Positions 7,108-19,606 of a DNA stretch of 36,132 nt are shown piece by piece. The DNA comes from Spirochaetota bacterium. GTDB taxonomy: Bacteria; Spirochaetota; Spirochaetia; DTKZ01. The notes beneath the pieces were generated by a model that was not told the origin of the DNA, did not search any database, and saw only the letters and a list, made by a program, of their open reading frames with translations. A program made the position numbers and the translations under genes. Within the stretch, counting starts at the first letter, position 1. Each line of letters starts with the position of its first letter. The stretch is from the NCBI GenBank assembly GCA_026418195.1, contig JAOABU010000005.1, positions 1 to 36,132 of the forward strand. The letters are read 5' to 3'.

Positions 7108-7145
7108 AAAAAAAAAGCCTCTACGGAAAGGGTTCCGTAGAGGCT
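7108..7145 (-). terminator. Intrinsic terminator forming the expression platform of the fluoride riboswitch
   Basis: A perfect 13-bp inverted repeat (7116-7128 and 7133-7145) has a 4-base loop and is followed on the minus strand by nine T (7116-7108). Its 5' arm contains the GCCTC segment that the aptamer needs for its pseudoknot, so folding of the aptamer and of the terminator exclude each other. This predicts an ON switch: ligand binding should prevent termination. Confidence 0.9.
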
Positions 7146-7184
7146 ATCAGCCACTGTTGGCGGTTTGGGCGAGCCTCATCGCCC
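7135..7184 (-). promoter_or_regulatory. Fluoride riboswitch (crcB motif) aptamer
   Basis: Read on the minus strand, the RNA starts GGGCGAUGAGG and follows the crcB-motif layout. P2 is GGGCG (7184-7180) with CGCCC (7171-7167), then the conserved AAAC. P3 is GCCA (7161-7158) with UGGC (7153-7150), then UGAUA. The pseudoknot is GAGGC in the P2 loop (7177-7173) with GCCUC (7144-7140). From memory, it matches the crystallised Thermotoga petrophila fluoride aptamer at nearly every conserved position. It lies about 10 nt after the predicted transcription start and leads directly into the terminator before the MutS-like pair. No crcB or fluoride-type CLC gene is in the window, so the MutS-like operon is the direct target. 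Confidence 0.93.
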
Positions 7185-7197
7185 AGCTTATGTATTC

Positions 7198-11215: not shown

Positions 11216-13879
11216 CTATCCTCGGGGTAAACGAAGAGCGACCTGCGCAGCGGTGAGTCTGGCAATGGGAACTCGAAAGGGAGAACAGGAAACATAATCT
11301 CCTCCAATTGAGTGGAAAAACTCAATGGAACTAGGATCTCCTCCGTGCTCCCCACACATCCCATATTTTAAAGACTTTTTTACGGCTCTGGAATTGGAAA
11401 TCGCAAGGGATACTAGCTGACCTACTCCTTTACGGTCTAAAGTCTTAAAAGGATCCTCTTCTAATATTTTTTGTTCTAAGTAGTAAGGTAAAAAAGATCC
11501 TACATCGTCTCGGGAGTATCCAAAGGTCATTTGTGTTAAATCGTTTGTCCCAAAGGAAAAGAAATCTGCATAGGGAGCAATTTCTTCTGTGGTGAGGGCT
11601 GCTCTGGGAATCTCGATCATAGTACCAATCTTGTACTCGATCTGGCCTGGAGGGAGAATTTGGAGCATCTTTTTTTCTAGTTGCTCTCGGAGGATAGATA
11701 GTTCTTTGTAAGTACCAACAAGGGGAATCATGATCTCAGGCAAAACATGGATTCCCTCTTTTCTCACCTCGACAATGGCGAGGGCAATCGCCTCTACTTG
11801 CATTTCATAGATCTCAGGATATACGATTCCCAAACGACAGCCCCGCATACCGAGCATTGGATTCATTTCTTTCAAACTCTCTGCTTTGCTCCGCAGTCGC
11901 TCTACGGGTATGTGTAATGTTTCTGCAAGAGCTTTTATGTCCTCTAAAGAATGAGGCACGAACTCATGGAGCGGAGGGTCTAGTAAACGTATTGTCACTG
12001 GGAATCCATTCATTGCACGGAAAATCCCTTTGAAGTCTTCTTTCTGGAGAGGCAAGAGTTTCCGCAATGCCGCTTGACGAGATTCCTTATTCTCAGCAAC
12101 GATCATTTCTTGGAAAATTTCCAATTTCCCTTTGTCAAAAAACATATGTTCAGTTCTGCATAGTCCTATTCCTTCTGCACCGAACCTCCTTGCCTTCTCT
12201 GCATCTTCGGGAATATCCGCATTCGCACGAACTTGTAATCCTTTCGGTCGCTCGGTGTGTGGGTCCTTCTCTTTTCGGATCTCGTCAGCCCAATTCAAGA
12301 GAGTCTGTAGTTCTTCAGAAAGGATTGGTGGTATTAAGGAAAGCTGGCCTTCAAAGATATTCCCTGTAGAACCATCAATAGTTAACCAAGCTCCTTCAGC
12401 TAACTCTTTCCCATAAACGGTTATTTTCTTTACACTACTGTCCACGAGAATATCCTTAGCACCGACAATACACGGTTTCCCCATCCCTCTTGCTACCACT
12501 GCGGCATGGCTTGTCAATCCTCCGGTAGACGTAAGCACTCCCTCGGAAACGTACATCCCTCCGATATCATCCGGGGAAGTTTCTTTACGAACTAAAATTA
12601 CCTTTTTCCCTTCCTTTGCCCAATTTTCTGCATCCTCAGAAGTAAATACGATTTGTCCTGCCGCCGCACCCGGTGAGGCATTGAGTCCTTTTGCGATGGG
12701 TTTTGCGTTTTTGCTCACTTTTGGATCTATCATCGGATGTAACACTTGGTCTAACTGTTCGGGAGTGACTCTGAGGATCGCGGTTTTCTTATCTATGATG
12801 GTTTCCTTTGCCATATCAACTGCGATTTTTACTGCGGCGGTTCCTGTACGCTTTCCAGAACGAGTCTGTAAAATATAAAGCTTCCCTTTTTCTACGGTGA
12901 ACTCAATGTCTTGCATATCCTTATAATGCGCTTCTAAAAGGTCTTTAAATGCCACTAGCTGATTGTACAATTCTGGATTTTGCCTCTTTAGAGCATCTAA
13001 GGGTTCGGGAGTCCGAATGCCGGCTACTACGTCTTCTCCCTGAGCGTTCATCAGATATTCTCCATAGAACTCCTTCTTGCCTGTCGAAGGGTCCCTGCTG
13101 AAACAAACTCCTGTACCAGAATCAAGTCCAAAATTCCCAAAAACCATGGTTTGAACGGTTACAGCGGTGCCTTTCAGGTTTTTAATGTTGTGGATTTGTC
13201 TGTACCGAATAGCTCGTTCATTATTCCAGGATCGAAATACCGCAGCAATCGCTTCCCATAACTGTTGTTTTGGATCTTGGGGGAACTCTTCTCCTGTCGA
13301 ATTGCGAAATTCCTTTTTATACTCTTCTACAATACGTATCAGATCCTTTACTTCCAATTGGGTATCTAAGGAAACCCCTTTCTCTAATTTCTTCTTTTCC
13401 AGGATGTGTTCAAAGGAATCATGGGATACATGTTTCACTACGTTTCCAAACATTTGGATGAATCGTCGATAGGCATCCCATGCAAACCGCGGATTCCCTG
13501 TCTTTGCGGATAGTCCTTCGACTACCTTATCATTCATTCCCAAGTTCAGCACAGTGTCCATCATGCCTGGCATTGAAACAGCGGCTCCCGATCGAACAGA
13601 AACGAGTAACGGATTGTCAGGGTTCCCGAACTTCTTCTCTAGCAGTGTTTCTAACCGGTGTAAATTGAGTTCTACTTCTTCTTGAAGACCGTCTGGGAAC
13701 CTCTGTCCGTGTGCATAGTACAATTCGCAAACTTCCGTAGAAATCGTGAACCCTGGAGGAACGGGGATACCAAGGTTTGTCATTTCAGCCAAGTTGGCTC
13801 CTTTTCCTCCCAGGAGATCCTTCATGGAGGCATTCCCTTCTGCTTTTCCACCTCCAAAAAAATAGACCATTTTAGTCAT
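11216..13879 (-). CDS. ppdK: Pyruvate, phosphate dikinase
   Basis: An 887-residue cytoplasmic enzyme interconverting pyruvate + ATP + Pi and PEP + AMP + PPi. It is full length for the family. The N-terminal ATP-grasp part has GGKGANLAEM and SVRSGAAVSMPGMMDTVLNLG. The swivelling domain has catalytic His458 in GGLTSHAAVVARGMGKPCIVGA. The C-terminal PEP/pyruvate TIM barrel has GLCRTEHMFF, GTMIEIPRAAL, FSFGTNDLTQMTFGYSRDD and GMCGEHGGDP with its acid-base Cys. The ATG at 13879 follows AAGGAG. It lies 35 nt after the DUF4914 gene on the same strand, so it is the second gene of a unit whose leader carries an attenuator (15826-16045). In anaerobes it often works glycolytically with pyrophosphate-linked metabolism. 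Confidence 0.97.
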   Translation of the reverse strand: MTKMVYFFGGGKAEGNASMKDLLGGKGANLAEMTNLGIPVPPGFTISTEVCELYYAHGQRFPDGLQEEVELNLHRLETLLEKKFGNPDNPLLVSVRSGAAVSMPGMMDTVLNLGMNDKVVEGLSAKTGNPRFAWDAYRRFIQMFGNVVKHVSHDSFEHILEKKKLEKGVSLDTQLEVKDLIRIVEEYKKEFRNSTGEEFPQDPKQQLWEAIAAVFRSWNNERAIRYRQIHNIKNLKGTAVTVQTMVFGNFGLDSGTGVCFSRDPSTGKKEFYGEYLMNAQGEDVVAGIRTPEPLDALKRQNPELYNQLVAFKDLLEAHYKDMQDIEFTVEKGKLYILQTRSGKRTGTAAVKIAVDMAKETIIDKKTAILRVTPEQLDQVLHPMIDPKVSKNAKPIAKGLNASPGAAAGQIVFTSEDAENWAKEGKKVILVRKETSPDDIGGMYVSEGVLTSTGGLTSHAAVVARGMGKPCIVGAKDILVDSSVKKITVYGKELAEGAWLTIDGSTGNIFEGQLSLIPPILSEELQTLLNWADEIRKEKDPHTERPKGLQVRANADIPEDAEKARRFGAEGIGLCRTEHMFFDKGKLEIFQEMIVAENKESRQAALRKLLPLQKEDFKGIFRAMNGFPVTIRLLDPPLHEFVPHSLEDIKALAETLHIPVERLRSKAESLKEMNPMLGMRGCRLGIVYPEIYEMQVEAIALAIVEVRKEGIHVLPEIMIPLVGTYKELSILREQLEKKMLQILPPGQIEYKIGTMIEIPRAALTTEEIAPYADFFSFGTNDLTQMTFGYSRDDVGSFLPYYLEQKILEEDPFKTLDRKGVGQLVSLAISNSRAVKKSLKYGMCGEHGGDPSSIEFFHSIGGDYVSCSPFRVPIARLTAAQVALRLPRG

Positions 13880-13914: not shown

Positions 13915-15789
13915 CTATTTATGTGGCAGCAGTGACTCATAATCAGCCACAGAGCCTTTATCCATGAAGCACTCAATAATTAGTCGCCCGCTTAGGTGCA
14001 GTTCAGGGGATAGAAACTTCTTCAATTCCCTCTGGAAGAAATCTTCAAGAATTTTTGCTCCCCGATCGTACGCTTCTTCTCCAACTTCAATCTGCTGTTC
14101 CACTTGCAGAAGTCCTATGGGCATATCAACCCCCTGGATTCGTACAGATTTTGGTACGTATCCTAGGAGGGTGCACCGAGCAGGGGTAATTTGTTCGGGC
14201 CGGAACTTAACTCCTCCTCGGCGGGTAATATATTCCCGGGTGAGCCATTGGGGCATGAAACTGACCCGGAAAGCCCCGATGTGCTGATTCGGAATAAGGA
14301 GATACTTCGTTTCTGGAGTTTCTAGGATCTGCTGGAGAAGGAGATTCGCCTGATCCACCATACTGCCCGTGGCAAAGGGCCAATAGGATCCTACACCCTC
14401 ACTACTAAGTCCAGCGGTTTCCGTGATGCTTGGGTTGTCGTGTCCCCGGGGAGCTACCAGTCTCCAGAGCCATGCCAAAGCAGGAGGTAAAACATGAAAC
14501 ATGCCAATGATCCCATATGTAGGATGTTCCCGTGTGCAAGGAGGAGTACGGACCCCGAAGCTTCGAACGTCTACCTCGACCGGTTCGTTCACAACACCAG
14601 GAACGAATCGTCTGGGCATAATTACCCTTGGGTTGGGACATCGTTTTCCTGGGGCATCCATCGTATGTTCCCAAATCAAGCAGGTAGCACCTTGAACGCC
14701 ATCCAAGTTCAAGAAAATCAGAGGCTCTGGCGGATGAATGGTAAGCTTCTCGATGAAGGGATCTGTCCCGTAATGGGTGATATGGTTGATCCGAAGGAAC
14801 CATCCCTGCTCTGCATCCTTCACCACTAGTTTCCCACTAGTGTTCTGAAGCTTAGGGTGGCAGAGAGCCATATCGTCGGTGATAGGCATCAACTCGCAGC
14901 TGTCGGATAGTTTCAGGTAGAGTTTATCTCCTGTTTTCAGGTTTTCCCCCACCAGAATCCGGCCGTCCAGTTCTTTATGCATCTGTTCGATCATCTCACT
15001 TTTACCACCACCGCTTGCTCCTTCGTGCATGATGGTCACGATGTTCTCGTAAGGAGAGATAGAGCGAACGGTGGATCCGTGCAGGGTGATCCATCCTTCC
15101 TGCTCTCCGATGGTCAATAGCACTCCATAGATTCCTTTCTTTGCGCTAGGCCCAGGATATAAATTGTAGGAAAATATCTCGTGCACGCTGGTTCGATGAT
15201 GCACCACGATCTGCTTTCCTTTGAAATGCGTATGCCGGAACGGAGGGGCTACGTAGATGATGGCTCGGGGAGTAAACCGTTCGGGAACTTTTTCAGGAGG
15301 TAGGAATCCTTGAAGGTCTGCCAATCCACCTGCAAAGAATCCAGCGTTGGAAGGAGCGATAATTAGGGCTGGGTATCCGTAGGGTTCACCACCAGCAAGA
15401 AACGCGAAGACAAGAAGACTCTGAGTAGATAACCAATGGAATGTTTCCGTACGAAGAGGAGTAAAGTCAGACCCGAACGTGTCTTTATAGCGGGGTTTAT
15501 CAGTCTTTTTCTGGTCTGCAACGACCATACAATCGGGGTCCCGTCTGCGGATGTATGGATCCACATAGTTGATGGAAAGTCCGTTCTTGCACCGGACTAC
15601 CTCCGCTTCTAGGACCCATCCTTTCCCCGGCACCTCATACCCGACTTGGAAAAAGTTCTGTCTACCTACCGCAATTTCCAGTAATTCTTTCCTGTTCTCG
15701 GGTATGATAAGTTCGGGTGCATTAGATAAAAGAGTAGCTACTTCCTCTTGCAAGGATAATTTGGATAGAAATTGTTCTTTTATGACCAT
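13915..15789 (-). CDS. DUF4914-type protein, PEP carboxykinase-like P-loop protein
   Basis: A 624-residue cytoplasmic protein that I associate, from memory, with DUF4914, a family without an established function. It shows a kinase-type P-loop, HEGASGGGKSEM (residues 255-266; Lys263, Ser264). About 40 residues later comes PITDDMALCHPKL, whose paired Asp (305-306) resemble the second metal/nucleotide motif of PEP carboxykinases. Other striking stretches are RNRKELLEIAVGRQNFFQVGYEVPGKGWVLE-like sequence near 33-60, DGVQGATCLIWEHTMDAPGKRCPNPR and LIPNQHIGAFRVSFMPQWLTREYITRRGG. The fold is probably PEPCK-like; the reaction is unknown. ATG at 15789 follows GGAGGTTCT. It precedes ppdK by 35 nt, which supports a role at the PEP-pyruvate-oxaloacetate node. 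Confidence 0.72.
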   Translation of the reverse strand: MVIKEQFLSKLSLQEEVATLLSNAPELIIPENRKELLEIAVGRQNFFQVGYEVPGKGWVLEAEVVRCKNGLSINYVDPYIRRRDPDCMVVADQKKTDKPRYKDTFGSDFTPLRTETFHWLSTQSLLVFAFLAGGEPYGYPALIIAPSNAGFFAGGLADLQGFLPPEKVPERFTPRAIIYVAPPFRHTHFKGKQIVVHHRTSVHEIFSYNLYPGPSAKKGIYGVLLTIGEQEGWITLHGSTVRSISPYENIVTIMHEGASGGGKSEMIEQMHKELDGRILVGENLKTGDKLYLKLSDSCELMPITDDMALCHPKLQNTSGKLVVKDAEQGWFLRINHITHYGTDPFIEKLTIHPPEPLIFLNLDGVQGATCLIWEHTMDAPGKRCPNPRVIMPRRFVPGVVNEPVEVDVRSFGVRTPPCTREHPTYGIIGMFHVLPPALAWLWRLVAPRGHDNPSITETAGLSSEGVGSYWPFATGSMVDQANLLLQQILETPETKYLLIPNQHIGAFRVSFMPQWLTREYITRRGGVKFRPEQITPARCTLLGYVPKSVRIQGVDMPIGLLQVEQQIEVGEEAYDRGAKILEDFFQRELKKFLSPELHLSGRLIIECFMDKGSVADYESLLPHK

Positions 15790-15825: not shown

Positions 15826-15865
15826 AAAAAAAGCCAGCGTTCATACGCTTTGTACGAACGCTGGC
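15826..15865 (-). terminator. Leader terminator (attenuator) before DUF4914-ppdK
   Basis: A 10-bp inverted repeat (15833-15842 with 15856-15865), extended by three pairs inside the loop, is followed on the minus strand by seven T (15832-15826). It lies between the promoter at 16017-16045 and the DUF4914 start codon with no credible gene in between, so it acts in a leader and is presumably conditional. Confidence 0.82.
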
Positions 15866-16010
15866 CTACTCTGCAACCGATGGATACCTTATTTCTTGTA
15901 GATAGGTACCATCCTTTGTATAGTCTACCCGCTCTATGACTTTAAGATTGCCTCCCCTCTCTCCCGAGAGCTTTTCGAATGCACTCGTTAGTAGGGGCTT
16001 CAATCTAACA
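15863..16010 (-). ncRNA. Structured leader RNA of the DUF4914-ppdK operon (leader C), candidate riboswitch
   Basis: About 150 nt of untranslated leader. A 5' domain is closed by AGAUUG (16006-16001) with CAAUCU (15950-15945) and by CCCC/GGGG (15997-15994 with 15957-15954), and encloses a CUCUC/GAGAG hairpin. A second domain starts GGGUAGACU (15930-15922) and ends AGUAGGCC (15870-15863). It holds a hairpin GGAUGG(U)ACC/GGUAUCCAUC. The final GCC is the foot of the terminator stem. ACU and AGU can close this second domain, the same layout as leaders A and B at 16101 and 19561. I could not match it to any known riboswitch. Length, context and the terminator are seen; ligand sensing is inference. 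Confidence 0.5.
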
Positions 16011-16100: not shown

Positions 16101-16145
16101 GGAAGACTGGATGGAGAGATTCTACGCTAGCCATCCGGTAAGCCG
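16101..16145 (+). ncRNA. Small conserved leader element A (GGAAGACUG-hairpin-GUAAGCCG), candidate riboswitch
   Basis: A 45-nt element at the 5' end of the OFA transporter transcript. GGAAGACUG (16101-16109) and GUAAGCCG (16138-16145) flank a hairpin with stem ACUGGAUGG/CCAUCCGGU and a 16-base loop containing UUCUACG. The last AGCCG is also the 5' arm of the following terminator. Element B upstream of the kinase-like gene has identical flanking blocks at almost the same spacing (28 versus 29 nt) around a stem of different sequence. I recognise no known RNA family. Confidence 0.6.
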
Positions 16146-16192
16146 TTATGTGCTTATGCTTTAAAGGAGCAGAGTACGTAACGGCTTTTTTT
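16141..16192 (+). terminator. Leader terminator before the OFA transporter gene
   Basis: AGCCGUUA (16141-16148) pairs with UAACGGCU (16179-16186). The stem continues with GUGCU/AGUAC and UGCUUU/GGAGCA and is followed by seven T (16186-16192). It lies 24 nt before the GTG start of the transporter, with no gene between it and the promoter, so it is a candidate attenuator. Confidence 0.82.
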
Positions 16193-16216
16193 ATGCCAAC
16201 AGGTTAGGAGGTTGGG

Positions 16217-17383
16217 GTGAAAAAGTGGCTTGTTCTATTAGGAGGCATTGCGATGCAAAGCTCTCTGGGAGGAATCTATGCGTGGAGTACTCTGGTAGGC
16301 CCTCTACAAACCCAGCTAGAGTTTTCCCGCTTTCAAAGTGGTCTGGTATATGGCATCATGATTGGCATCTTTGCGTTTGCTACCATCCCTGCTGGCAGAT
16401 GGTACCTGCGTATTGGTCCACGACGGACGGGAATGATAGGGGCAGCTCTTTTTACTTTTGGTTACTGGATCGCATCCTTTTCCCAAGGTAAGTTTTTCCT
16501 GTTTTTGCTCGGGTTAGGGCTGGTTACTGGAACTGGAATTGGATTCGGCTACGTGTGCCCCCTCTCGGTCGGAATGAAATGGTTTCCCCATAGAAAGGGT
16601 CTAATCACGGGAATCATGGTTGCTGGTTTCGGATTTGGAGCTCTATACCTTTCTTCAGGGATGGAAATTCTTTTAAGTCGGTACGATGTACTAACCGTTA
16701 TAAGAATAGTGGGAACCACATCAGGTGGAATTGCCTTTATTGCTGCATCCCTTTTGTCAGAACCCATAGGAAGGAAGGTGCCGCATGCTTCAGCGTTATT
16801 CCATCTAAAAACACTCGTTCACTCGACAAAGTTCCTTATCCTCTGGATGGGCATGTTCACAGGTACGTTTTCTGGGCTCCTTATCTCCGGACATTTGAAA
16901 CCCCTTTTGCGAGAATATGGGTTATTAGATTCTTTGGCTGCTTTTGGGGTACCGGTGTTTGCCCTTGGAAATACCGCTGGCCGTTTGATTTGGGGACGTT
17001 GGTACGATCATTGGGGACCTCAACGTACCGTTCAGAGATCTATCGGAGTGTTACTGGCTTCCGTAATGCTTCTACTGGTAGGACGAATCCCTGTGCTATC
17101 GTTTCTCGCTGTCCTGGGGATCGGATTCGGCTTTGGCTCCTGTTTCGTCATATACGCTTCCTCTGTGGCTGATCTATTTGGAGTACAAAACGTACCCCGT
17201 ATTTATCCGTTGCTTTTCGGTGGGTATGGAATTTCAGCACTACTAGGACCAACTATCGGGGGGATCCTATCGGATGTAACGAACTCGTATTCCTGGGGAT
17301 TGGGATTAAGTATTGTTCTCCTTAGCGGTACGCTGGGAATCGTAAAAACACTCCGGGTTTTACCTTCTTCCCCTACTCATTGA
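16217..17383 (+). CDS. OFA-family (oxalate/formate antiporter-like) MFS transporter
   Basis: A 388-residue, 12-helix major facilitator protein. OFA hallmarks are the N-terminal GGIYAWSTLVGPL and FGYVCPLSVGMKWFPHRKGLITGIMVAGFGFGA; the second half has NTAGRLIWGRWYDHWG and GGYGISALLGPTIGG. OFA members exchange oxalate, formate, pyruvate or other small monocarboxylates; the substrate here is not determined by sequence. The start is GTG at 16217, chosen for TTAGGAGG seven to ten bases upstream. Expression is probably governed by the leader terminator at 16141-16192 and element A. The gene overlaps the 3' end of the convergent MpsC/DUF2294 gene by 7 nt. Confidence 0.85.
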   Translation: MKKWLVLLGGIAMQSSLGGIYAWSTLVGPLQTQLEFSRFQSGLVYGIMIGIFAFATIPAGRWYLRIGPRRTGMIGAALFTFGYWIASFSQGKFFLFLLGLGLVTGTGIGFGYVCPLSVGMKWFPHRKGLITGIMVAGFGFGALYLSSGMEILLSRYDVLTVIRIVGTTSGGIAFIAASLLSEPIGRKVPHASALFHLKTLVHSTKFLILWMGMFTGTFSGLLISGHLKPLLREYGLLDSLAAFGVPVFALGNTAGRLIWGRWYDHWGPQRTVQRSIGVLLASVMLLLVGRIPVLSFLAVLGIGFGFGSCFVIYASSVADLFGVQNVPRIYPLLFGGYGISALLGPTIGGILSDVTNSYSWGLGLSIVLLSGTLGIVKTLRVLPSSPTH

Positions 17384-17730
17384 GAATCAGTGAGTATGAA
17401 TATGATCACACGTTCTCCTGTCCGAGTGCTGATGTCGGTGTGGAGGCTGAGTACGTCCCGACCCGTGATCTCTTTTATGGTCTGATAAAGATACTCCTTA
17501 TTCGTCTCGATCAATTCTCTACGCACTCGTTTGATCAAGCGTAAACCATCATGGATACTTGCAGACTGGGCGATCTGTTGTTCCGCTTTGGTAAGAATGC
17601 CTTTCAACCGGACCAACACCATGTCATCGATGATGTAGGTTTTTGTTTCTAGGGGTCCTCTACCCAAGTATTCTTTTTCGAACCGTATGATCGCTTCACT
17701 AATTTTCGCCTCCAGCTGCCCTTTTGTCAT
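17377..17730 (-). CDS. MpsC/DUF2294-family protein
   Basis: A 117-residue soluble protein whose whole length fits DUF2294. It shows GQLEAKISEAIIRFEKEYLGRGPLETKTYIIDDMVLVRLKGILTKAEQ, then RRELIETNKEYLYQTIKEITGRDVLSLHTDIS and GERVIIFIL. The family is named after Staphylococcus MpsC, part of a membrane-potential/inorganic carbon transport system, but many members stand alone and their role is unclear; no MpsA or MpsB is in the window. The ATG follows GAGGAGAG. The gene lies 32 nt after the kinase-like gene on the same strand, so the two are probably co-transcribed behind leader B. Confidence 0.8.
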   Translation of the reverse strand: MTKGQLEAKISEAIIRFEKEYLGRGPLETKTYIIDDMVLVRLKGILTKAEQQIAQSASIHDGLRLIKRVRRELIETNKEYLYQTIKEITGRDVLSLHTDISTRTGERVIIFILTDSQ

Positions 17731-17762
17731 GTTTTCTCTCCTCTTGGCTTATCCTACCATAT

Positions 17763-19469
17763 CTATCCTATAAATATATATCTATCATGATCAAAAGTGT
17801 TTTTTTGATGGGTCACAGTGTACCGTCTCGTCATAAACTCGAAGTTACATAAGCGAACTTTGGGAATCCCCTCCTCGGTTTTCTGTATCGTCCGAGTATC
17901 TGAAAGGAATAGTAGAACATGCTGCCCTACCAGATGATGGTCCTGCATCCCCTTTTTCTGTAGTTGCATGTTGAGGAATCGGATAAGGGAATAGTATGCC
18001 TCCTCCTGTATTAAAGACAGGTAAAAAGCTTGCAGTGCGTCAATTACTTCTACCTGATCGGAGTTCTCGGTATCAAGATCCCATAGCATAAAATACTCGT
18101 GATTTTTCCGAAGAATCGGGTTTCCTTCCCGTGTCAGCAGGGAAGCATGGGACTTGTATTTGGATTCATCATAGGGATGGATGGTCAATGAAGGTTTTTC
18201 GCCCGTCATGTAAATGGCTAGGGGAGCTAAACAGTCTATCCCTAGGGATTTCAATTCCATGGCAATGGAGAACTCTTGGAAAGGACTATTGTAGCCGTTT
18301 TTCAACAGCTCTTGGGATTCTGCGTGGTAAGGTTCTATCACAGGATGTTCTCCGACCCGTGATTTACGCCATAGAATATCGAGACCGTCTGCTGTTTTTG
18401 TTCTGAAGAGTCTTTGGTCTAGAGTAACATCGGAACTCCGGGAGAGGTTAAACCACTTTTCAGGATAGAAATAGTCGAATAATTCGAAATCGTTGCCCGT
18501 TACCCATAGGTACCCCCCTGTTGAGGGAACTTCCCCGCAAACGTAGGGTACTCCCATAATCGTCGTTCTGTAGATAGCTCCGGTTTTTTCAGATTCCATC
18601 CTATCGGGTTGGAACCTAGAATTCTTTCTATAGTAATACCGTGAACGTCTTTCTGCTTGCTTTGCTTTGGTATTATTTGAGTTTCTATATAGTAGCTCAT
18701 AATCCACAAGAGATACGTTCCGCCCTTTGAATGTTAGCTTTGTTGGACTCTCATTCCCATTCGTTAGTATGATGTGGCATAACTTGTGATCTACCACATC
18801 AAACCCTGCTTCGAATAGTATCCCTTTTAATTGATCGGAAAACTTCTCTGCTTCCTGCCGATCTACCTCGTCCGATTCCACTAATTCCAACAGGTTTTTT
18901 CCTGGGATCCACTGGTACATGACCGCGTACTGTCTGTGCATATCCATTTCTGCTTCCCAGTGGGAGAGGAGATAATGTTCCATTAAGTATTTCCTCCGCT
19001 GTAAGGCCTCTAGGGTGTACCGGTCCGAAGGAACATAGATGGCCAGCGGGTTTTGTGTGCCAATCGTTGAAGTTTTTCTAAGTTCATCCGCTAATGCGAA
19101 CTCTTCGAAGGGAGTGTTGAACTGTTGGGTCGTGTAAGGAACATAGGTTTTCATTCCCATGCGGTTCCATTTGAATACTATATCGATGGCGACCCCATCA
19201 AACTCCTTTGTCGTTACTTTGTAAGGAACGCTGGAACCTTCCAGAGTGATTCGGTGGGATTGAAACCATAGATTGTCGCGAACCAGATTTCGAGGCAGGA
19301 GATGCTTCATATAGGGGACTCCATGATCCGTAAAAAAAAGATCATCTCCTTCCAAGGTTTTCACGTGAAGGTAGGGAATATCGATAATGGAACGGATATC
19401 CATTTCTAGAATGTATCCTTCCAAATAGGGCGGTATCTCAATCTTTTTCTTTCTTGGTTCTTTTCCCAC
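17763..19469 (-). CDS. Unrecognised protein with two kinase-like repeats
   Basis: A 568-residue protein of unknown family. It contains a duplicated stretch: FNTPFEEFALADELRK…NPLAIYV (about residues 117-147) and YNSPFQEFSIAMELKS…APLAIYM (about 393-422), so it is an internal tandem repeat. After the first copy come YQWIPGKNLLELV, DHKLCHIILTNGN and SLVDYELL. These resemble the hinge, catalytic loop and metal-binding Asp (about 256) of lipopolysaccharide/aminoglycoside-type kinase folds, but the usual Lys and HxD pattern are not certain. No signal peptide or membrane helix is seen. I chose the GTG start at 19469 (GAGGGAT five bases upstream); a longer in-frame extension runs through the leader terminator and promoter and is rejected. 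Confidence 0.6.
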   Translation of the reverse strand: MGKEPRKKKIEIPPYLEGYILEMDIRSIIDIPYLHVKTLEGDDLFFTDHGVPYMKHLLPRNLVRDNLWFQSHRITLEGSSVPYKVTTKEFDGVAIDIVFKWNRMGMKTYVPYTTQQFNTPFEEFALADELRKTSTIGTQNPLAIYVPSDRYTLEALQRRKYLMEHYLLSHWEAEMDMHRQYAVMYQWIPGKNLLELVESDEVDRQEAEKFSDQLKGILFEAGFDVVDHKLCHIILTNGNESPTKLTFKGRNVSLVDYELLYRNSNNTKAKQAERRSRYYYRKNSRFQPDRMESEKTGAIYRTTIMGVPYVCGEVPSTGGYLWVTGNDFELFDYFYPEKWFNLSRSSDVTLDQRLFRTKTADGLDILWRKSRVGEHPVIEPYHAESQELLKNGYNSPFQEFSIAMELKSLGIDCLAPLAIYMTGEKPSLTIHPYDESKYKSHASLLTREGNPILRKNHEYFMLWDLDTENSDQVEVIDALQAFYLSLIQEEAYYSLIRFLNMQLQKKGMQDHHLVGQHVLLFLSDTRTIQKTEEGIPKVRLCNFEFMTRRYTVTHQKNTFDHDRYIFIG

Positions 19470-19509
19470 TGCATCCCTCGTGTGATATATAGGTCCATGG
19501 TTTCGTGAT

Positions 19510-19565
19510 AAAAAAAGCCGGTACGCATACGCACTGCTAAACCAGTAATCATATGCGCACCGGCT
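19510..19565 (-). terminator. Leader terminator before the kinase-like gene
   Basis: Minus-strand stem AGCCGGU (19565-19559) with ACCGGCU (19522-19516), extended by CGCAUA/UAUGCG, followed by seven T (19516-19510). It lies after promoter B and 40 nt before the GTG start, so it acts as an attenuator for that gene and would also end transcripts from the symporter gene at 19672. Confidence 0.82.
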
Positions 19566-19606
19566 TACTAAAAGACAGGTCCGTAAGACCCCTCTTTCAG
19601 TCTTCC
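19561..19606 (-). ncRNA. Small conserved leader element B (GGAAGACUG-hairpin-GUAAGCCG), candidate riboswitch
   Basis: The minus-strand RNA reads GGAAGACUG (19606-19598) and GUAAGCCG (19568-19561) around a hairpin with stem ACUGAAAGA/UCUUUUAGU and a loop containing GGUCUUACGGACC. The flanking blocks equal those of element A, while the stem sequence differs but still pairs, which is what a conserved RNA structure would show. The 3' AGCCG is the foot of the terminator at 19510-19565. Confidence 0.6.

Follow-up and report, generated by a model that had tools for sequence, protein, structure and literature searches.

The 36,132-nucleotide (nt) stretch of DNA analysed here (the window; positions 1 to 36,132 of contig JAOABU010000005.1, assembly GCA_026418195.1, from a Spirochaetota bacterium) carries three copies of a short RNA element, A, B and C, each running into the foot of an intrinsic terminator ahead of a set of genes. 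An initial annotation had proposed A and B as a new riboswitch class, and its two exact shared blocks lie where it placed them, in A at 16101–16145 on the + strand with 28 nt between the blocks and in B at 19561–19606 on the − strand with 29 nt between. The features of the locus are listed below; A, B and C are all in the alignment from which the covariance model (CM) was built, and their CM scores are therefore not independent of it.

16101–16144, + strand: element A, an aptamer-like domain (GGAAG-P1-P2-P3-AAGCC); CM match 39.2 bits, E ~1e-6; fold
16140–16192, + strand: intrinsic terminator of leader A; AAGCC foot at 16140–16144 common to element A, T-run at 16186–16192; fold and sequence
19562–19606, − strand: element B, domain as in A and the top-scoring copy in the window; CM match 48.2 bits, E ~7e-9; fold
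19510–19566, − strand: intrinsic terminator of leader B; AAGCC foot at 19566–19562, T-run at 19516–19510
15863–15929, − strand: element C, a diverged third copy (GGUAGACU...AGUAGGCC); CM match 33.9 bits, E ~2e-5
15826–15867, − strand: intrinsic terminator of leader C; 16 pairs, T-run at 15832–15826
16217–17383, + strand: major facilitator superfamily (MFS) carboxylate transporter downstream of A; top model L-lactate monocarboxylate transporter, next the oxalate/formate antiporter (OFA) family, all below cutoff
17763–19469, − strand: first gene of unit B, 568 amino acids (aa) from GTG (17763–19490, 568–575 aa); no Pfam or NCBIfam match
17377–17730, − strand: MpsC (PF10057, DUF2294), second gene of unit B and a recurrent element partner across lineages
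13915–15789, − strand: DUF4914 protein (PF16260), first gene of unit C
11216–13879, − strand: pyruvate, phosphate dikinase (PPDK), second gene of unit C; TIGR01828 above cutoff

Folding of leaders A and B gave a single hairpin with a strong terminator directly behind it (z −7.3 and −8.4), so that both do end in a terminator foot as the annotation had said. The exact block pair has no other match in the window or in the 3.13-Mb genome, where shuffled sequences are expected to give none, and the covariance model finds A, B and C in that genome and no fourth copy. The two units had been described as divergent, but A on the + strand and B on the − strand face each other and are convergent; the divergent partner of A is C, which had been missed and which precedes the DUF4914-PPDK operon on the − strand. 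Transcription starts had been predicted close to A and B, where a consensus promoter scan finds no promoter. TTGACT/TATATT-type promoters do lie just upstream of several copies in Scalindua. As for the genes, the transporter had been called an OFA carboxylate transporter; an L-lactate MFS model scores above the oxalate/formate models, and every score is below cutoff. The first protein of unit B, called kinase-like, matches nothing in Pfam or NCBIfam (by eye, it seems to consist of two similar halves), and MpsC, also named in the annotation, matches PF10057.

To find relatives, the pattern GGAAGAYTG N18-45 RTAAGCC N20-50 GGCTTTT was scanned over ~85,000 species genomes. This gave 66 loci, 27 of which fold like A and B, and a scan of viral contigs added one distinct sequence, present on three contigs, for 28 convincing relatives in all. 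More than half of the 66 were set aside as chance matches, having no family fold and scoring below 23 bits. Named sources are Schlesneria, Scalindua, Planctomycetales, Aerophobetes, Thermotalea metallivorans, Clostridium caldaquaticum and another Clostridiales genome. A covariance model (R1), built from 31 sequences of the element alone without its terminator, divides the relatives and extra copies on the same loci (at least 33.8 bits) from the other pattern matches (at most 22.9 bits). A, B and C each combine a match well above this background with a terminator at the foot. With the covariance model, more than 100 copies were found in 17 genomes (Planctomycetes, Scalindua, Aerophobetes, Clostridia), with up to 20 per genome. 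In the Scalindua order, further copies occur in 10 of 39 genomes, where the element and its terminator can be repeated in tandem as two to four units; one Brocadiales genome has an unusually long series of four complete units with a 128–129 nt period (L204 5480–5918, − strand; G986:C109). Divergent pairs like C and A recur in Schlesneria.

Closer to the window, no convincing relatives were found in the sampled genomes of its order, class and phylum, where other exact-block matches lack the fold or a model score, and in the other eight genomes of its order both the element and MpsC are absent, the transporter gene also being missing from these relatives. Within the phylum of the Aerophobetes genome the element was found in the already known genome only. 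A search of 391 genomes of Thermotalea's class with model R2 gave near-zero matches, which is no evidence of absence, as the strict filters missed Thermotalea's own known copy. Since the scan of the whole collection used near-exact blocks, the range of the family is underestimated.

The members of the class are ~42–67 nt long and share the consensus 5′-GGAAG-ACU-n2-P2(3–4)-AG-P3-apex-P3′-G-P2′-n2-AGU-AAGCC-3′. Among 113 distinct sequences, 90% of the cells in the proposed helices are paired, compared to 79% after shuffling; sliding one strand leaves no more than 50% paired. Changes on both sides of a pair are seen at 10 of 12 pairs, in 170 cells against 50 ± 5 in shuffled alignments, although these counts ignore relatedness. 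We therefore used a tree-aware null as well, in which the inferred substitutions of each column are placed randomly on the tree and ~1,770 column pairs are compared at a threshold of E ≤ 0.05. Just two column pairs are significant in the whole alignment, and both belong to P3. When only the 15 proposed pairs are considered, which lowers the E-values ~118-fold by a rescaling derived from the tree-aware result, six pass: 7–76 in P1, 12–71 and 13–69 in P2, and 17–64, 18–63 and 19–62 in P3. The class has in this respect what is looked for in a riboswitch, a conserved 5′-leader RNA structure backed by covariation, and the concern raised with the annotation, that no homologues with covarying stems would be found, is answered by homologues in several phyla.

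The first search fixed GGAAGAYTG and RTAAGCC, so conservation of the blocks is partly by construction. Copies found by the model do vary at block positions (GGAAAACT, GGATGACT, GGACGACA, AGAAGACT); among these, A6 and U77 are invariant and A3, A78, A79 and G80 seldom change. The outermost helix, P0, is a proposed pairing of the two ends of the element (in A, G16101 and G16102 with C16144 and C16143) and is present in the nascent RNA fold. Two observations favour P0 beyond thermodynamics: in one clade a G-C pair has become A-U through changes on both sides, and P0 can be extended by another pair immediately outside the model, which is C-G in 79, U-A in 12 and U-G in 11 of 132 copies (standard pairs in 77%, against 66% in shuffled sequences). 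Pairing between the loop and the 5′ block, which the annotation had noticed in A and B, was rejected as a general feature, as the mean longest run is 3.25 compared to 2.94 in shuffled loops.

The link to the terminator is close. A hairpin with a U-run begins at the AAGCC foot in 112 of 115 distinct matches, even though the model ends there; two of the 112 terminators are weak (−4 to −5 kcal/mol). Of the three matches that lack one, two sit at the edge of a contig. The terminator is otherwise free in sequence, and thus the near-invariance of AAGCC is not a requirement of the terminator. When the RNA ends 6 nt past the foot, the lowest-energy fold has P0 in 122 of 130 elements, including A, B and C. 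For the full-length leader, the thermodynamic model favours the terminator over the P0 state by a mean of 7.2 kcal/mol, and P1–P3 fit both states. The part of a switch expected to be mutually exclusive with the terminator would here be P0, with AAGCC common to both, although the covariation of P0 is weak.

From these results a mechanism can be proposed. From the base upwards, the RNA consists of the putative P0 (GG:CC), a symmetric loop of purines (AAG/AAG), P1 (ACU/AGU) and a small loop, then P2, another loop, and P3 capped by a variable apex. In the nascent RNA the AAGCC strand would close P0 first, together with the AAG/AAG loop, and once the downstream half is transcribed AAGCC would turn into the terminator foot (AAGCC/GGCUU) beside the U-run. 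Were a signal to stabilise P0 together with the purine loops, AAGCC would be kept away and the terminator would lose its base, allowing read-through. The bound signal would have to hold P0 against the terminator, and the hairpin left over would stand ~5 nt from its U-run, which is why an ON switch is predicted. We consider it probable, at roughly two in three, that A, B and C represent an undescribed class of cis-acting leader RNAs that controls termination as a signal-stabilised ON switch, with a small-molecule or ion signal tied to inorganic carbon or short carboxylates. Of the new riboswitch class in the annotation, the structured leader class stands (covarying homologues, terminators, no Rfam match), while riboswitch function proper, meaning direct sensing of a small molecule by the RNA, is plausible.

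The genes behind the elements were examined for the nature of the signal. Operons were called from the order of open reading frames alone, so some assigned genes are operon members and not first genes, and the gene frequencies are plain observations with no comparison to a genome background behind them. Outside Planctomycetia, the genes include SulP transporters (distant to the DauA and BicA models), β-carbonic anhydrase, Na+-translocating oxaloacetate decarboxylase, a molybdopterin oxidoreductase of the formate-dehydrogenase type with NuoG-type domains, acetyl-CoA synthase, PurE/AIR carboxylase, MpsC and PPDK. GTP-dependent phosphoenolpyruvate carboxykinase (PEPCK) lies behind elements in Aerophobetes and Clostridiales, MFS transporters of the lactate/oxalate type in the window and in Thermotalea, and a DUF3360 gene in C. 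caldaquaticum. We read the common theme outside Planctomycetia as CO2 or bicarbonate being made, used or moved, and our best guess for a single ligand is bicarbonate/CO2. In Planctomycetia, the genes are MpsC, YflT, BON, PRC-barrel, KaiC-KaiB, Usp, SpoIIAA-like, chalcone-synthase-type (type III polyketide synthase) and FtsX/MacB; kaiC-kaiB operons are preceded by the element in four Planctomycetial genomes (L122, L123, L132 and L143).

MpsC is a partner of the element in several lineages, and in three Brocadiales loci it lies just upstream of the elements rather than downstream. Its name derives from the MpsAB bicarbonate system (PMC6689103, PMC8552792). MpsC has a confidently predicted structure (predicted local distance difference test score 92.5), for which a comparison with the PDB gave no significant match; an RNA-binding role by fold was rejected on this ground, its resemblance to ribosomal proteins having a template modelling (TM) score of ~0.3. 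MpsC could be a regulated gene or a trans-acting factor.

Several observations weigh against the switch as proposed and against inorganic carbon as its signal. The GG:CC pairs of P0 are near-invariant with little covariation of their own, the change of G-C to A-U on both sides comes from one clade, and since no P0 pair passes the tree-aware test we continue to treat P0 as a putative switching helix. A bicarbonate ON switch ahead of bicarbonate-uptake genes would amount to positive feedback, and MpsC of Staphylococcus aureus reportedly takes no part in bicarbonate transport (PMC8552792). The genes in Planctomycetia are mostly of the stress type and look like a stress regulon that indicates no single metabolite. 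Our literature searches on bicarbonate, oxaloacetate, Scalindua and Planctomycetes riboswitches returned nothing that matches and no bicarbonate/CO2 riboswitch. It is a tentative idea, with the odds rather against it, that the class senses dissolved inorganic carbon (bicarbonate/CO2) and would be the first natural riboswitch to do so, serving carbonic anhydrase, SulP-type transporters and CO2-fixing or decarboxylating enzymes in anammox bacteria and others and recruited to stress genes in Planctomycetia.

A protein rather than a metabolite could stabilise the hairpin. In the ribonucleic antiterminator (RAT) sites of BglG/LicT, a hairpin with internal loops overlaps the 5′ side of an intrinsic terminator with its 3′ part, and the regulons comprise sugar-utilisation genes and the adjacent antiterminator gene. 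The element follows the same logic, with internal loops and the same overlap, and the protein might be encoded nearby; MpsC would be one candidate, being a repeated neighbour across lineages, absent together with the element from the other genomes of the window's order, and without a known function or a fold significantly matched in the PDB. Mixed regulons would also suit a trans-acting factor. However, many copies lie far from MpsC, its likeness to ribosomal proteins is insignificant, and the scan of neighbouring genes revealed neither sugar-utilisation genes nor an antiterminator gene of the PRD type, whole genomes not having been searched for the latter. The conserved unpaired purines flanking P1 would fit a ligand pocket equally well. 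We regard a RAT-like site as unlikely. That the element is merely a conserved form of attenuator or terminator, spread by duplication and sensing nothing, is very improbable: the many copies per Schlesneria genome and the tandem arrays could be seen this way, but conservation sits in unpaired purines and short closing strands while the remaining terminator sequence is free, the helices covary, and the same element stands ahead of unrelated operons in several phyla.

The signal could also be Na+. The Na+-I riboswitch (DUF1646 motif, RF03071) is a small aptamer overlapping a terminator, in which binding prevents the terminator and turns expression ON, and it controls oxaloacetate decarboxylase genes (PMC9337991), a gene type that recurs behind the element described here. 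The Na+-translocating decarboxylase, the distantly BicA-like SulP transporters and P-type cation ATPases, which are also among the associated genes, would agree with this, but carbonic anhydrase, PurE, acetyl-CoA synthase, the formate-dehydrogenase-type enzymes, PEPCK and PPDK are not sodium genes. The conserved sequence of Na+-I is different and its architecture has two stems, with P2 competing with the terminator. Membership was rejected, as RF03071 is absent at its gathering threshold (40.5 bits) and its lone match, at 14.4 bits, is in a different register and unrepeated; sensing of Na+ by the element seems decidedly improbable to us. More generally, A, B and C and the relatives at 19 loci were compared with the 4227 families of Rfam 15, none of which reached its gathering threshold on any of these elements, permissive scans giving sub-threshold matches only, in keeping with the annotation's failure to match a known family. 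The HMP-PP (thiS) riboswitch, described as a "terminator-embedded aptamer" (PMC6478431), appears similar in that terminator and aptamer form one unit; its gene context is unrelated and it gave no match in the Rfam scans.

Some further observations concern the window and the places where the element was found. Fluoride riboswitches are small anion-sensing leaders, and one (RF01734, 43.8 bits) lies in the window at 7131–7192 on the − strand; this known class is unrelated to A, B and C, which share with it the small size and give no match to RF01734. Within the window's genome, the element is confined to the contig of the window (G000:C151). The element, MpsC and the transporter are together missing from other genomes of the order, and horizontal transfer is possible; the GC content and tetranucleotide usage of the contig match its bin and do not mark it as plainly foreign. 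Among contigs classed as viral (112–192 kb), the element lies upstream of a CsrA-like gene on L080 (784–843, − strand) and is the same on L084 and L085, the gene having been checked on L080. Another copy in the viral-contig collection is upstream of an MpsC gene (L175 2877–2933, − strand), on a contig that may be bacterial and not viral.

A small, conserved, terminator-coupled RNA class that occurs in several phyla with up to 20 copies per genome and is absent from Rfam is a ready target for ligand discovery, and its gene set makes the sensing of bicarbonate/CO2 by RNA directly testable. Furthermore, the class offers a way to study regulation in anammox bacteria and Planctomycetia, as well as MpsC.

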